From: a virus
Reading direction: 5' to 3' (one strand)
IMG/VR virus record: IMGVR_UViG_3300025151_000144
Coordinates: 1 to 34,447 of that record
DNA: 34,447 bases
The notes under the pieces were generated by a model. That model worked only from the letters and a program-made list of their open reading frames with translations, made no database searches and was not told the DNA's origin. Shown piece after piece: positions 822 through 28,646 of the stretch (position 1 is its first letter; every line of letters starts with the position of its first letter). The translations under genes were made by a program, and so were the position numbers.

Positions 822-1544
822 ATGCCTTTACCAAAGATTGCGACACCGACGTATGAGTTGGAATTACCTTCTACAGGCAAGAAAATTAAATATAGACCTT
901 TTCTTGTAAAAGAAGAAAAAATTCTTATCATTGCGATGGAATCTGAAGATCAAAAAGAAATTACTAATGCCTTGAAGACGGTTATTGGTAATTGTATTTT
1001 GACTAGAGGAGTAAAAGTTGATACTCTATCAACATTTGATATCGAGTATCTGTTCTTAAATATTCGTGGCAAGTCTGTTGGTGAAACAGTTGAGGTTTTG
1101 ATTACATGTCCCGATGATGGTGAAACTCAAGTTCCTGTTGTAATTCCTCTTGATGAAATCAAAGTAAAGAAAGATAAGAAACACAGTCGAGATATTAAAC
1201 TTGATGATAATTTGACAATGAGATTGAGGTATCCATCTTTATCAGAATTTATCAAATCTAATTTTGTTTCTGATAGTGGTAATGCCGGTGTAAATGAATC
1301 ATTTGATTTGATATCTTCTTGTATTGATCAGGTTTATAATGAAGAAGAATCATGGAGTGGAACTGATTGTAGTAAAAAAGAATTATTAGATTTTATTGAG
1401 CAACTTACATCACAACAATTCAAAGAAATTGAAACATTCTTTGAGACCATGCCAAAACTTTCTCATGATGTTAAAGTAATGAATCCAAATACAAAAGTTG
1501 AGAGTGATGTTGTCCTAGAAGGGTTATCATCTTTTTTCTCATAG
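822..1544 (+). CDS. gp26: Baseplate hub / tail assembly chaperone, gp26-like
   Basis: The 240-aa product begins MPLPKIATPTYELELPSTGK, followed by 'YRPFLVKEEKILIIAMES'. This opening matches my memory of the T4 baseplate family that contains gp26, which helps assemble the central hub. The middle has a four-residue CPDD turn inside 'VLITCPDDGETQVPVVIPL', where the T4-like family often has a Cys-containing hairpin. Length fits the family (roughly 200-250 aa). Its position just before a small 60-aa frame and a probable tape-measure gene is the classic place for a G-type tail assembly chaperone. Its last codons contain the heptamer T TTT TTC, and slippage there would extend it into the next frame. 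The family call is fairly sure; the chaperone role is inferred from context. Confidence 0.66.
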   Translation: MPLPKIATPTYELELPSTGKKIKYRPFLVKEEKILIIAMESEDQKEITNALKTVIGNCILTRGVKVDTLSTFDIEYLFLNIRGKSVGETVEVLITCPDDGETQVPVVIPLDEIKVKKDKKHSRDIKLDDNLTMRLRYPSLSEFIKSNFVSDSGNAGVNESFDLISSCIDQVYNEEESWSGTDCSKKELLDFIEQLTSQQFKEIETFFETMPKLSHDVKVMNPNTKVESDVVLEGLSSFFS

Positions 1545-1558
1545 GTATGGCTCATACT
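1532..1558 (+). promoter_or_regulatory. Candidate programmed -1 frameshift signal
   Basis: Bases 1532-1538 are T TTT TTC, read in the gp26-like frame as the end of TCT then TTT and TTC. This fits the X XXY YYZ slippery heptamer. The in-frame stop TAG follows at 1542-1544. Slipping back one base gives CTC ATA GGT ATG and runs directly into the 60-aa frame at 1547. Six bases after the heptamer is a small hairpin, GTATG (1545-1549) with CATAC (1553-1557), extendable by a G-U pair. The signal is seen in the sequence; its use is inferred. Confidence 0.55.
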
Positions 1559-1729
1559 AATCTTGAGTCATACTATAAGACTAACTTTTCTTTGATGCAG
1601 CATCATAAATACTCTTTGACGGAACTAGAAAATATGATTCCGTGGGAAAGAGAAGTTTACATAGCATTATTACAACAATATATTGAAGAAGAAAATTTAA
1701 AAGCACAGCAGCAAAGAAGTGGTAACTAG
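1547..1729 (+). CDS. Small T-like tail assembly protein, probably made as a frameshift extension of the gp26-like protein
   Basis: The 60-aa frame contains 'YSLTELENMIPWEREVYIAL' followed by 'LQQYIEEEN'. The pattern Pro-Trp-Glu-Arg, then a hydrophobic helix and an acidic Ile-Glu-Glu-Glu end, resembles the short T domains of phage tail assembly chaperones that recruit the tape-measure protein. It lies in the -1 frame relative to the gp26-like gene, begins two bases after that gene's stop, and has no Shine-Dalgarno sequence before its ATG. A slippery heptamer upstream would fuse the two, giving a product of about 300 aa. It may also be translated alone by coupling. Its end overlaps the GTG start of the tape-measure candidate by 11 bases. 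T4 has a comparably placed gene, 51, but I cannot show homology from here. Confidence 0.6.
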   Translation: MAHTNLESYYKTNFSLMQHHKYSLTELENMIPWEREVYIALLQQYIEEENLKAQQQRSGN

Positions 1730-3479
1730 TCAATCTTTCAAGGCACCAAAAATACCAAAACTCAACAAGAAGATTGTATCATCTTCTGTGCTTTCAAGTG
1801 CTCCAAAACTTAAAGTAACAAAGATCAACGCTCCAATATCAACATTATCAAGACCAGTTAGTCAGGGGATTGGTAAAGTAGAAGGTGATGATGCAAAAGA
1901 AAGTATTGTTGCTCAGGAATCATTAATTAGAGTTGTTAATTCTCTCAATAAGACTAGTGCTGTCTTAAATCAACTTACTGATTATCTTATAACTGAAACT
2001 CAGTTAGAGCAAGAATTATTACGAGAAAAAATAAGAGGTGAAAAATTAGAAGATGAGAGAGAACGAAAAAAGATAAAAGAATCTAAGTTAGAGGGAGTTG
2101 GTAAAAAAGCAAGAGATGCATTTTTAAAACCAGTCAAGGCAATAGGTAACAAGGCAAAAGGTATATTTGATACACTTAAAAATGTATTGGGATTATTATT
2201 TGTTGGATGGTTAGGTAATAAAGGATTTGATGCGATTCAACTGAGTGCCGAAGGAAATATAAAAGCACTCGAAAATTTAAGAGATGAAGTAATTGGTGGA
2301 TTGACATTTGCTCTTGGGACATTTGCGTTATTAAATGCTGGAATACTTGGATTAGTTCCAACAATACTTGGATTATCATTGTCTATATTAGCATTACCTT
2401 TTAAGGCACTTTTTGATGCTGGGAGAGGAATTCTTAATAAAATAAGAGGTGGTGGTGGAAAACCTGGTGGTGGAAAACTTGGATCTGGAGGTGCTGTTGG
2501 AAAACCTGATACTGGAAAACCTGGTGGTGGAAAACCTGGCGGTAAACTGTCACCATTTCAGTTGGAGCAGCAAAGAAAAGCAGGTACTCGGGATAATATG
2601 ATGAAACAAAATAAAACAAATCCAATAATAAAAAAATTTAGATCACTATTAGCAAAATTTGAAACAAGCAAATCTGGTAGAGCAGTTGGTAAAGTTCTTA
2701 GTGCTTTTAAATCCAATCCAGTTTTTGCACCATTTCGATGGATGTTCGGAAAAACTTTGAAGGCATTTGAATGGTCTAAAAAGTTTTTCACTCCAAAGGG
2801 ATTAAAAGATATTGGGAATAAAATTGGTAAAGTGAAAATCTTAGGGCGTTTAATTGGACCTTTACTTAGTTTAATTGATATTGGAAGAAGGGCGAACGCG
2901 GGAATGTCTCCGGCACAGGCAATTATTCCTGCATTATTTAAGGGTTTATTAATTTCTGGTGGGGCTGCTCTTGGTGGTTTAGTTCCTATTCCTGGAGTTA
3001 ATATTTTAACATCTATTGCCGGTGGTCTTGGAGCTGGTTGGTTGGGTGATCAAATGGTAAATTATGCTGATAATAATTGGAATAAATCTTGGGATAATAA
3101 TTTCTTTTCTGGATTTAATAACGCTGTGATGGAAATTGGAAAATCGGATCCAACTGGAATGATATCCAAAATATTCCCATATGAAGGTACTGATAAAAAA
3201 TATGGAGATGGTAGTGCTGTTGCAAAAGGAAAAGATAATTCAGACTCTGCCGTATCTTCTATGAGTTCTTCGTCTATTTCTGCTCCTTCTATGCCAACAA
3301 TGGCACCACCATCTGCGGCACCTTCTCCTCAACCAATAATTATTCGTAGAAGATCTGGTGGACAACAACAAGTACCATTAAAAGTTGGACCCGCAACAAA
3401 AGTTCCTAATATTTCCTCTTCAAATCCCGATAATTTTCTTACATTATATTCACAAGCACAGTATAATGTGGTAGGATAA
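1719..3479 (+). CDS. Probable tail tape-measure / hub protein (gp29 position)
   Basis: This 586-aa protein has a GTG start overlapping the preceding frame. Residues 1-60 are Lys/Ser/Pro-rich, and 65-135 form a highly charged helical or coiled-coil stretch ('REKIRGEKLEDERERKKIKE'). Hydrophobic segments lie near residues 153-170 ('VLGLLFVGWLGN'), 190-235 and 380-448, the last rich in Gly and Ala. A Gly-Lys-Pro repeat linker spans about 243-278, and the C-terminus is Ser/Pro/Ala-rich. Membrane-type segments in a non-membrane virion protein are a hallmark of tape-measure proteins, which extend through the tube and help DNA cross the inner membrane. Its length is close to T4 gp29 (590 aa), and it follows a G/T-like chaperone pair, the usual gene order. 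I see no direct sequence match to gp29, so the role is inferred from position, size and composition. Confidence 0.55.
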   Translation: MVTSQSFKAPKIPKLNKKIVSSSVLSSAPKLKVTKINAPISTLSRPVSQGIGKVEGDDAKESIVAQESLIRVVNSLNKTSAVLNQLTDYLITETQLEQELLREKIRGEKLEDERERKKIKESKLEGVGKKARDAFLKPVKAIGNKAKGIFDTLKNVLGLLFVGWLGNKGFDAIQLSAEGNIKALENLRDEVIGGLTFALGTFALLNAGILGLVPTILGLSLSILALPFKALFDAGRGILNKIRGGGGKPGGGKLGSGGAVGKPDTGKPGGGKPGGKLSPFQLEQQRKAGTRDNMMKQNKTNPIIKKFRSLLAKFETSKSGRAVGKVLSAFKSNPVFAPFRWMFGKTLKAFEWSKKFFTPKGLKDIGNKIGKVKILGRLIGPLLSLIDIGRRANAGMSPAQAIIPALFKGLLISGGAALGGLVPIPGVNILTSIAGGLGAGWLGDQMVNYADNNWNKSWDNNFFSGFNNAVMEIGKSDPTGMISKIFPYEGTDKKYGDGSAVAKGKDNSDSAVSSMSSSSISAPSMPTMAPPSAAPSPQPIIIRRRSGGQQQVPLKVGPATKVPNISSSNPDNFLTLYSQAQYNVVG

Positions 3480-3480
3480 G

Positions 3481-5211
3481 ATGAATTTTGTAACAGGAAT
3501 ACAAATAAAATATTCAAACTTTTCCAAGACTCTGGAAAAGGCAAAGGACAGTGCTTCCTCCATTTCAAAATCAACAGAAACCTTAAAAAAAGTTTTCATT
3601 AAAAGAATTGATATAAAAAAGAAATCATTTACCAGAGAAAAATTATTTAAAAGGAGAAAACTAGAACTATCCAGAAGGAGAGAAAAGGAGCAAAAATTAG
3701 AAACTGTACCAATAACAGGAAAGATTGGAAAGTCTTTTTCTAGTGTTCTTCAAAAAGCATCCAGTCCTTTTAGTGCCATAATGAATACTCTTGGACTATT
3801 GGCACTGGGATGGTTGATTAATAATCTCCCAAGTATTATAAAATTTGTTAAGGATTTATATAATAGAGTTGTAAAAATTGTTGATACAATAAAAAGTTTT
3901 ATTAGTAATCTTGGTAATTGGTTTAAGAATATTGGTGGTGTAATAACTGCCGTAAAAGATAATATAACCAATCTAGATTTTACCGACAGTGAAGGTAAAT
4001 TAAAAAATGCCTTAGAACAACTTGATAAGTCTTTTGAATCAATGAAAAATGATATTGAAGAAGGTAAAAGATTGTTAACCACACCATTGGGACAGGGAGT
4101 TTCTGGTGGATCAACAGGAGGTGGTGGAGATTTAAATGCTGCAGATATTGAAGCAGATACACCAGAGGAAAAGGCATTTATTGCCACAGTTAGAGAACTA
4201 GAAGGAACATCTCACGCAGAAGGTTACAACACTTGGTTTGGTGGTAGATCGGATATGGATCTCTCACAAATGACTGTTAGTGAAGTTGTTGCCGAACAAA
4301 AAAGAAGATTATCTGCAGGTGAAGCTACTTATAGAAGATTAACATCGGCCGCAGTTGGTGCCGGACAATTTATGAAACCTGAGCAAACTGTTATGGCAAT
4401 GGGATTGGATCCAAATACTGTGAAATATACTCCAGAACTGCAGAATAAAATGATATTATTCCAGGCACAATGGGCAAGAGGCATTAACCCATCAAAAAAA
4501 CTTGATGAAAATGATATGAGAATTCTTGGTGGTGAATGGGCAAGTTTTACACCACAATATGGACAAACAACAAGAACAGCATCTCAATCTTTGTCTGTAT
4601 ATCAAAAAAATTTGAAGGAAGCTGGTGGAGGTGGAAGTGGTGGAAAATATTCTTACGGTTCGGGAAGTGTTGTTGAATATCTAACAGGAGATAGAAGTCA
4701 TCCAAACTTTGAATATAATGGTCATGGAAGAGAATCAAATTATCATGAACATATTGCTTTCAGAACATTACAAGATAAAGAAAGAGCAAAAGCAGCACTA
4801 AGAGCAGCAGGTATACAAATAGGTAGTGAATATAGACCAGGAGACCCTGGATGGCACGGTGCAAATTTGGCAATTGATGTTCCTGGAGCACAATGGGGTG
4901 GCAGTGGTGCCATTGGACAACGAGAATATAATGGTTCGGCAAAAGTTAGAAGTGTTTTGGCAGAGGCAGGATTTTCTGGTTCTGGTATAGGTCAAATGAC
5001 AACTAGAGGATCTGTTTCAAGTCTTCCTATGGTATCACCAGATTTGGGTTATCCTCAAGGTTCTGAACAAGCTCCAATCATCATAATAGATGAAGAGGCA
5101 CCACAACCTGCCCAAAGTGCTCGAATGCAACAAACACCACAAATGATTGTTACAAATCCATTAAATAGATTTATGAAAAACAAAATGTTATTGGACTTAG
5201 CATATACCTAA
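3481..5211 (+). CDS. Virion hub protein with lambda-R-like muramidase domain and M15-like zinc peptidase domain
   Basis: The 576-aa product resembles its upstream neighbour at the N-terminus: a basic helical stretch (about residues 40-80) followed by 'LGLLALGWL' and more hydrophobic helix to about 145. After a Gly-rich linker near 205-222 comes a domain of about 228-385 that matches lambda endolysin R (GH104 type). It has 'ELEGTSH' with candidate catalytic Glu241, 'VGAGQF' at 292-297 and 'WASFTPQYG' from Trp353. A second Gly-rich linker leads to a domain of about 400-500 with 'YHEHIAF' (His422, His424), 'GSEYRP' and 'WHGANLAID' (His459, Asp466), the H-x6-D spacing of M15 peptidases. It likely cuts peptidoglycan glycan and peptide during injection, replacing the lysozyme missing from the gp5-like protein. 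The N-terminal and GH104-like readings are visible in the sequence; enzyme activity is inferred. Confidence 0.66.
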   Translation: MNFVTGIQIKYSNFSKTLEKAKDSASSISKSTETLKKVFIKRIDIKKKSFTREKLFKRRKLELSRRREKEQKLETVPITGKIGKSFSSVLQKASSPFSAIMNTLGLLALGWLINNLPSIIKFVKDLYNRVVKIVDTIKSFISNLGNWFKNIGGVITAVKDNITNLDFTDSEGKLKNALEQLDKSFESMKNDIEEGKRLLTTPLGQGVSGGSTGGGGDLNAADIEADTPEEKAFIATVRELEGTSHAEGYNTWFGGRSDMDLSQMTVSEVVAEQKRRLSAGEATYRRLTSAAVGAGQFMKPEQTVMAMGLDPNTVKYTPELQNKMILFQAQWARGINPSKKLDENDMRILGGEWASFTPQYGQTTRTASQSLSVYQKNLKEAGGGGSGGKYSYGSGSVVEYLTGDRSHPNFEYNGHGRESNYHEHIAFRTLQDKERAKAALRAAGIQIGSEYRPGDPGWHGANLAIDVPGAQWGGSGAIGQREYNGSAKVRSVLAEAGFSGSGIGQMTTRGSVSSLPMVSPDLGYPQGSEQAPIIIIDEEAPQPAQSARMQQTPQMIVTNPLNRFMKNKMLLDLAYT

Positions 5212-28407: not shown

Positions 28408-28479
28408 GGGAATGTCGCCTAAAGGTAAAGGCCCTCTGCTTATAACGGAGTGATTTGGGTTCAAGTCCCAACATTCCTA
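28408..28479 (+). tRNA. tRNA-Ile (anticodon UAU)
   Basis: A cloverleaf can be drawn: acceptor 28408-28414 with 28472-28478 (first pair G-U), D stem GCCT/AGGC, anticodon stem CTCTG/CGGAG with loop CTTATAA, T stem TTGGG/CCCAA with loop TTCAAGT, discriminator A. The anticodon at 28441-28443 is TAT, which reads AUA. CCA is not encoded. Bacteria normally read AUA with a lysidine-modified CAU tRNA, so a UAU tRNA is unusual. Confidence 0.82.
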
Positions 28480-28482
28480 TTT

Positions 28483-28555
28483 GCTTCCTTAGCAATCTGG
28501 TGAATGCAGCAAACTCATAATTTGCCTAAGGAGAGTTCGATCCTCTCAGGAAGCA
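28483..28555 (+). tRNA. tRNA-Met (anticodon CAU); Ile-CAU not excluded
   Basis: Acceptor GCTTCCT/AGGAAGC (28483-28489 with 28548-28554), anticodon stem GCAAA/TTTGC with loop CTCATAA (anticodon 28516-28518), T stem GAGAG/CTCTC with loop TTCGATC, discriminator A followed by CC. It lacks the three G-C pairs in the anticodon stem of initiator tRNA, so it is elongator Met or lysidine-type Ile; sequence alone does not separate these. Confidence 0.8.
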
Positions 28556-28561
28556 CCTAAC

Positions 28562-28646
28562 GGGACGGTGGCGGAATTGGTAGACGCACCAGACTTAAAA
28601 TCTGTTGATCATTAAGATCGTGAGGGTTCAAGTCCCTCTCGTCCTA
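28562..28646 (+). tRNA. tRNA-Leu (anticodon UAA)
   Basis: Acceptor GGGACGG (28562-28568) pairs with TCGTCCT (28639-28645) using two G-U pairs. The anticodon arm CAGA-CTTAAAA-TCTG gives anticodon TAA. A long variable arm around GATCATTAAGATC marks a class II tRNA. The T arm is GAGGG/CCCTC with loop TTCAAGT. It reads UUA, a frequent codon in AT-rich phage genes. Confidence 0.9.

Follow-up and report, generated by a model that had tools for sequence, protein, structure and literature searches.

Phage lambda reportedly makes its two tail chaperones, gpG and gpGT, by frameshifting in the G/GT region, in work said to be that of Xu, Hendrix and Duda from 2004. Here we describe a locus of this type in IMG/VR virus record IMGVR_UViG_3300025151_000144, a linear DNA of 34,447 bases from a marine virus whose genes match those of T4-like cyanophages (Kyanoviridae); the whole record is referred to as the window. 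As judged from the window and its relatives, a -1 frameshift at the end of the gp26 gene very probably adds the gp51 domain to gp26, yielding a short and a long tail-assembly chaperone (TAC). The arrangement resembles G/GT in that a single locus would yield a short and a long chaperone through a -1 shift close to where the first frame stops, ahead of the tape measure (in the window, of a tape-measure candidate). It differs from lambda in its slippery site, T TTT TTC, accompanied in the window by a hairpin and a Shine-Dalgarno (SD)-like element. A sequence-only reading of the window had already proposed the G/GT layout; the predicted pair of a short and a long form fits it, whereas the tape-measure identity of the following gene is weak.

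Outside phages, Escherichia coli dnaX differs from the window locus in being a cellular gene with the heptamer A AAA AAG, and its shifted product is the shorter one. Its signals are laid out like those described below, with an upstream internal SD, an X XXY YYZ heptamer and a downstream hairpin (PMC6321510). The TAC locus of Vandenendeviridae and Andersonviridae, phage families other than that of the window and likened to it here by description, has a conserved poly-T -1 site (GTTTTT) ending TAC-N and a -1 frame open through TAC-C (PMC12846349). For T4-like phages themselves, poly-T slippery sites in TAC-N genes were reported by Vladimirov et al. 2022, as relayed in PMC12846349, and some of these phages are said to encode the short chaperone and a fused long one in two genes, with no frameshifting (Vladimirov, Gautam and Davidson 2022, Virology 566:9-15, as relayed in PMC10885494 and PMC10274946). 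The sequence-only reading had known of no such shift in the gp26 region of T4-like phages; with the 2022 report this is outdated as far as prediction goes, while our literature search likewise found no experiment showing a shift there. The window locus is therefore a well-supported further case of a known strategy, already outlined for T4-like phages and not new in kind. The present analysis adds the extent of conservation, the loci that lack start codons and two likely stimulators.

The junction comprises the following features.
822-1544, plus strand: gp26-like protein of 240 amino acids, short tail-assembly chaperone (TAC-N), assigned by PF12322, phrog_150 and homology to T4 gp26
1508-1729, plus strand: -1 reading frame of 73 codons, open from before the heptamer and including the 60-amino-acid frame
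1518-1523, plus strand: likely internal SD-like stimulator, GAAGGG in the window with its AAGG core at 1519-1522, supported by GAG enrichment in relatives
1532-1538, plus strand: slippery heptamer T TTT TTC, in the gp26 (zero) frame, supported by phase and conservation
1544-1574, plus strand: downstream hairpin with an 11-bp stem (1544-1554/1564-1574) and a 9-nt loop, holding the gp51 AUG, supported by folding and covariation
1547-1729, plus strand: gp51 domain, a 60-amino-acid frame and the predicted C-terminal part of the long chaperone (TAC-NC), assigned by phrog_634 and the T4 gp51 C-terminus

The letters of the junction read ...TCA TCT TTT TTC TCA TAG GT ATG GCT..., with a single sense codon (TCA) between the heptamer and the gp26 stop TAG at 1542-1544. 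An in-phase heptamer thus stands directly ahead of a zero-frame stop, and the -1 frame is open across it, as in programmed -1 frameshifting. Entered after the slip (from 1538), the -1 frame adds 63 residues, which would give a fusion of 302 amino acids (...GLSSFF-LIGMAHTNLE...). This combination stands out within the window. In-phase TTTTTT(C/T) heptamers occur 4 times among the 11,239 codons of the checked genes, and only the one at 1532-1538 is both close to the end of a gene and followed by a long -1 frame. The same genes hold 78 in-phase XXXYYYZ heptamers; the longest -1 frame open behind any of them is again found here (63 codons), and the runner-up has 38. The sequence-only reading had recognized both the phase of the heptamer near the gp26 end and the open path from it into the 60-amino-acid frame.

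The first frame is clearly gp26. It matches PF12322 (E 1e-76) and phrog_150 (E 2.5e-83), and T4 gp26 is homologous to it (hhalign E 1e-17), in line with its initial description as gp26-like and with membership of the T4-like gp26/gp51 chaperone pair. The 60-amino-acid frame is gp51: it matches PHROG 634, “baseplate hub assembly catalyst” (E 2e-28), and aligns with the C-terminus of T4 gp51 (hhalign E 2e-5), and phrog_634 matches both. It had been described as a T-like domain, and it belongs to an already known family. Annotations of relatives treat the domain as a “baseplate hub assembly catalyst” in its own right, and the records of P-SSM2 and S-H34 have gene 51 as a gene of its own. In P-RSM1, S-CAM1 and DSL-LC03, a gp51 domain lies in the -1 frame right behind gp26 and is unannotated in the public records. 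As the sequence-only reading had noted, the window's 60-amino-acid frame has no well-placed SD in its upstream letters (TTTTTTCTCATAGGT).

Comparison with T4 clarifies how the two genes are related. T4 and Aeromonas phage 31 have gene 26 on one strand and gene 51 on the other, which rules out frameshifting from one into the other. The N-terminal part of T4 gp51 is homologous to the window's gp26 (hhalign E 2e-6), and T4 gp51 spans positions 13-280 of the 282 positions of phrog_150 in addition to phrog_634, so that the fusion proposed for the window exists in T4 as one gene. The gp51 domain is carried by T4 gp51 only; hhalign found no match to it in T4 gp26. Gene 51 encodes a complete protein with N- and C-terminal parts in T4 and Aeromonas phage 31, whereas the cyanophage-like lineage of the window has one overlapping locus with a predicted -1 shift. 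Searching a phage collection with tblastn located gp26 at 682 places in 682 records and gp51 at 679 places in 677 records; with one place each in nearly every record, including complete cyanophage genomes such as P-SSM2, no second long copy is apparent. On the homology found here, we take genes 26 and 51 to be the TAC-N and TAC-NC genes of the T4-like phages mentioned above.

To assess conservation of the slippery site, we compared 271 distinct loci, including the window, drawn from IMG/VR relatives, matches to distant queries and annotated phages; many of these loci are closely related, so that counts are not numbers of independent events. The heptamer is present in phase in all 80 of the closest IMG/VR relatives and in 268 of the 271 loci, as TTTTTTC in 257 and TTTTTTT in 11. 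The sequence-only reading would have given up the frameshift if close relatives with both frames intact had lost the heptamer or its -1 phase; the loci compared do not show this. Sampled phages with the site belong to Kyanoviridae, Emdodecavirus, Menderavirus, Pootjesviridae and Straboviridae (Aeromonas 65, VH7D and Citrobacter Ci1). The two phenylalanine codons are strongly biased: TTT makes up 100% at the first and TTC 96% at the second, and the preceding codon always ends in T; at ten other conserved phenylalanine columns, TTT accounts for 37-91%. Under average codon usage the T6 pattern would be expected in about 43% of cases per locus, a figure that gives no formal probability for related loci, and it is seen in all but three. 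Heptamer and phase are thus more strictly conserved than the amino acids would demand. The gp26 stop is displaced 21 nt downstream in 13 loci, and the position of the heptamer relative to gp51 is unchanged there. In one of the three exceptions, an IMG/VR locus (IMGVR_UViG_2974778117, about 1385-1420), the T run is one base shorter than in the near-identical locus L086, which leaves no heptamer; this is either a sequencing error or a real loss, and the locus was excluded from the support.

Two further elements flank the heptamer and are likely to act as stimulators, judging by their sequence features. On the upstream side, the AAGG of the window lies 9 nt ahead of the heptamer and the GAGG of relatives 10 nt ahead, with GAGGG present in most relatives. 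The glutamate of the EGL motif at this site is encoded by GAG in 77% of loci, the highest among 15 conserved glutamate columns, against a background of about a third. An internal SD located 8-11 nt upstream is known to stimulate -1 shifting (PMC6321510). On the downstream side, the hairpin stem begins 5 nt after the heptamer. Such a spacer is typical of -1 sites. The hairpin has a predicted energy of -14.7 kcal/mol compared with -4.4 for shuffled sequences (z = -5.3). Across 40 relatives, 90.5% of its cells are paired, compared with 27-46% in slid controls, and 4 pairs carry two-sided changes. At alignment columns 21/35 (window positions 1552/1566), 11 of the 40 sequences have G-C in place of U-A; on the 5' side the substitution is synonymous for gp51, and on the 3' side it converts glutamate to alanine, a combination that suggests selection on the RNA. 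RNAalifold recovers just the 4 inner pairs from the 40-sequence alignment, and the full 11-bp stem rests on single-sequence folds and on the pair count. A search with Rfam returned nothing at the gp26-gp51 junction. Of 217 loci, 82 form at least 9 of the 11 pairs, and every one of these has the gp51 ATG inside the stem. The 5-bp GTATG/CATAC hairpin that had been proposed six bases downstream was dropped because the larger stem covaries and folds far better than shuffles; the 11-bp hairpin and the SD-like element, neither of which the sequence-only reading had named, are additions to it. The idea of a universal downstream hairpin was also rejected, as relatives beyond the window's clade have other stems or none of significant energy.

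From these elements and their conservation we infer the following course of translation. Genes 26 and 51 would form one tail-assembly-chaperone cistron, in which most ribosomes stop at 1542 and release the 240-amino-acid gp26 (TAC-N). A presumed minority would move back by one base on T TTT TTC while tRNA-Phe re-pairs in both the P and the A site, possibly aided by the SD-like element 9-10 nt upstream and the hairpin 5 nt downstream. The shifted ribosomes would read on into the gp51 domain and produce the 302-amino-acid gp26-51 fusion (TAC-NC). By analogy with lambda G/GT, both forms may chaperone the tape measure or the hub during tail assembly. Since the hairpin buries the gp51 AUG in the window's clade, free gp51 would be at most a side product there.

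Several observations weigh against this interpretation. The window itself and its clade keep an ATG at the start of gp51, and a separate gp51 may thus still be made there. The window also has the rarer GAA, not GAG, at the SD-like site, and the hairpin is specific to a clade (the 82 of 217 loci given above), the stem being different or absent elsewhere. Vibrio phage D503 and Vibrio phage 1.244.A lack the heptamer, and in both the -1-phase ATG of gp51 overlaps the gp26 stop (TAATG); here frameshifting may have been replaced by stop-start coupling.

The likeliest alternative, although we consider it improbable, is translational coupling, in which a ribosome finishing gp26 at 1544 melts the hairpin and restarts at the ATG at 1547, giving a free 60-amino-acid gp51 and no fusion. 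The ATG lies only 2 nt past the gp26 stop, the hairpin would bury it until a ribosome arrives, and many records annotate gp51 as a separate gene. We counted start codons within 8 codons after the slip site in the 259 loci with a complete -1 frame. An ATG is present in 137, as coupling would have it, but the other 122 have none: 26 offer GTG or TTG alone, and 96 contain none of the three. Loci without ATG retain an intact gp51 domain in the -1 frame, and in the 96 only a shift gives access to the entire domain. Among named phages, S-CAM1, P-RSM1, DSL-LC03 and Aeromonas 65 have no ATG near the slip site. In most loci without it, the position of the window's ATG encodes leucine, and presence of the ATG switches at least 13 times on a quick tree, 8 of these switches being forced by well-supported branches. 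Further evidence comes from the first -1 codon after the heptamer, which lies ahead of any ATG: it is an arginine codon CGN in 191 of 217 loci, with the third base free, which reads as the pattern of a translated -1 frame. Isoleucine, valine or leucine at the second -1 codon was dropped as evidence, since the zero-frame stop forces it. Coupling is also at odds with the conservation of the heptamer past amino-acid need, with the missing SD of gp51 and with the gp26-like N-terminal part that T4 gp51 has of its own.

Transcriptional slippage at the T6 run, by which messenger RNAs with an added base would be read into the gp51 frame in the ordinary way, appears very improbable. The run does sit exactly at the junction, but it consists of just six T, and such slippage usually needs longer runs. 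In 257 of 268 loci the run ends in C, the classic position for a ribosomal slip; its phase relative to the codons is fixed, and it is flanked by the two elements typical of ribosomal shifting. That the heptamer is a mere trace of a conserved Phe-Phe C-terminus of gp26, with no frameshift at all, is scarcely credible: Phe-Phe is indeed invariant in the protein alignment, but T6 far exceeds its codon-usage expectation, and the start-less loci would leave gp51 untranslated, yet its protein sequence is conserved.

A -1 frameshift is very probably the right account of the locus. A more detailed picture is offered tentatively, and we regard it as plausible without favoring it: the junction in the window's clade may be a dnaX-like cassette of internal SD, T TTT TTC and covarying hairpin, with the hairpin both promoting the shift and hiding the gp51 AUG, so that gp51 would be made essentially as a fusion only. 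The single frameshifted locus would be ancestral, replaced in T4 and near relatives by a gene 51 that is duplicated, fused and located on the opposite strand.

If frameshifting is correct, annotation would change at a locus of hundreds of sequenced T4-like phages, where gene 51 would become the C-terminal part of a frameshifted long chaperone. The “hub assembly catalyst” gp51 would be reread as a stand-alone long chaperone in T4 and as a frameshift product in cyanophage-like relatives. The two arrangements would also amount to an evolutionary switch that can be put to the test, with frameshifting and gene duplication as alternative routes to the same pair of proteins.

Structural comparison was less informative. 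Searching PDB sequences with profiles of gp26 and gp51 yielded no informative match. An AlphaFold model of gp26 (pLDDT 87.5) was compared with the PDB using Foldseek, and the HK97 chaperone 2OB9 appeared at ranks 3 and 13 with E-values of 1.3 and 2.3, which are not significant (match probability 0.25 at E 1.3); the predicted fold match is at most suggestive. Predicted structures of other phage gp26-type proteins match the gp26 model well.

Downstream of the junction lies the following gene.
1719-3479, plus strand: tape-measure candidate of 586 amino acids with a GTG start overlapping gp51, weakly matched by phrog_794

The sequence-only reading had expected a tape-measure gene next; a gene does follow, but its match to phrog_794, tail length tape measure, is weak (E 9e-4). 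The protein has a Gly-Lys-Pro-rich stretch (GGGGKPGGGKLGSGG...KPGGGKPGGK). The next frame, 3481-5211, encodes a 576-amino-acid protein that matches PHROG 90, “endolysin”, in its middle part (E 2e-21) and, more weakly, a tape measure; a tape-measure/lysozyme combination is possible. Elsewhere in the window, three consecutive tRNA genes (Rfam RF00005) occupy 28408-28646, just before a frame of 1901 amino acids.
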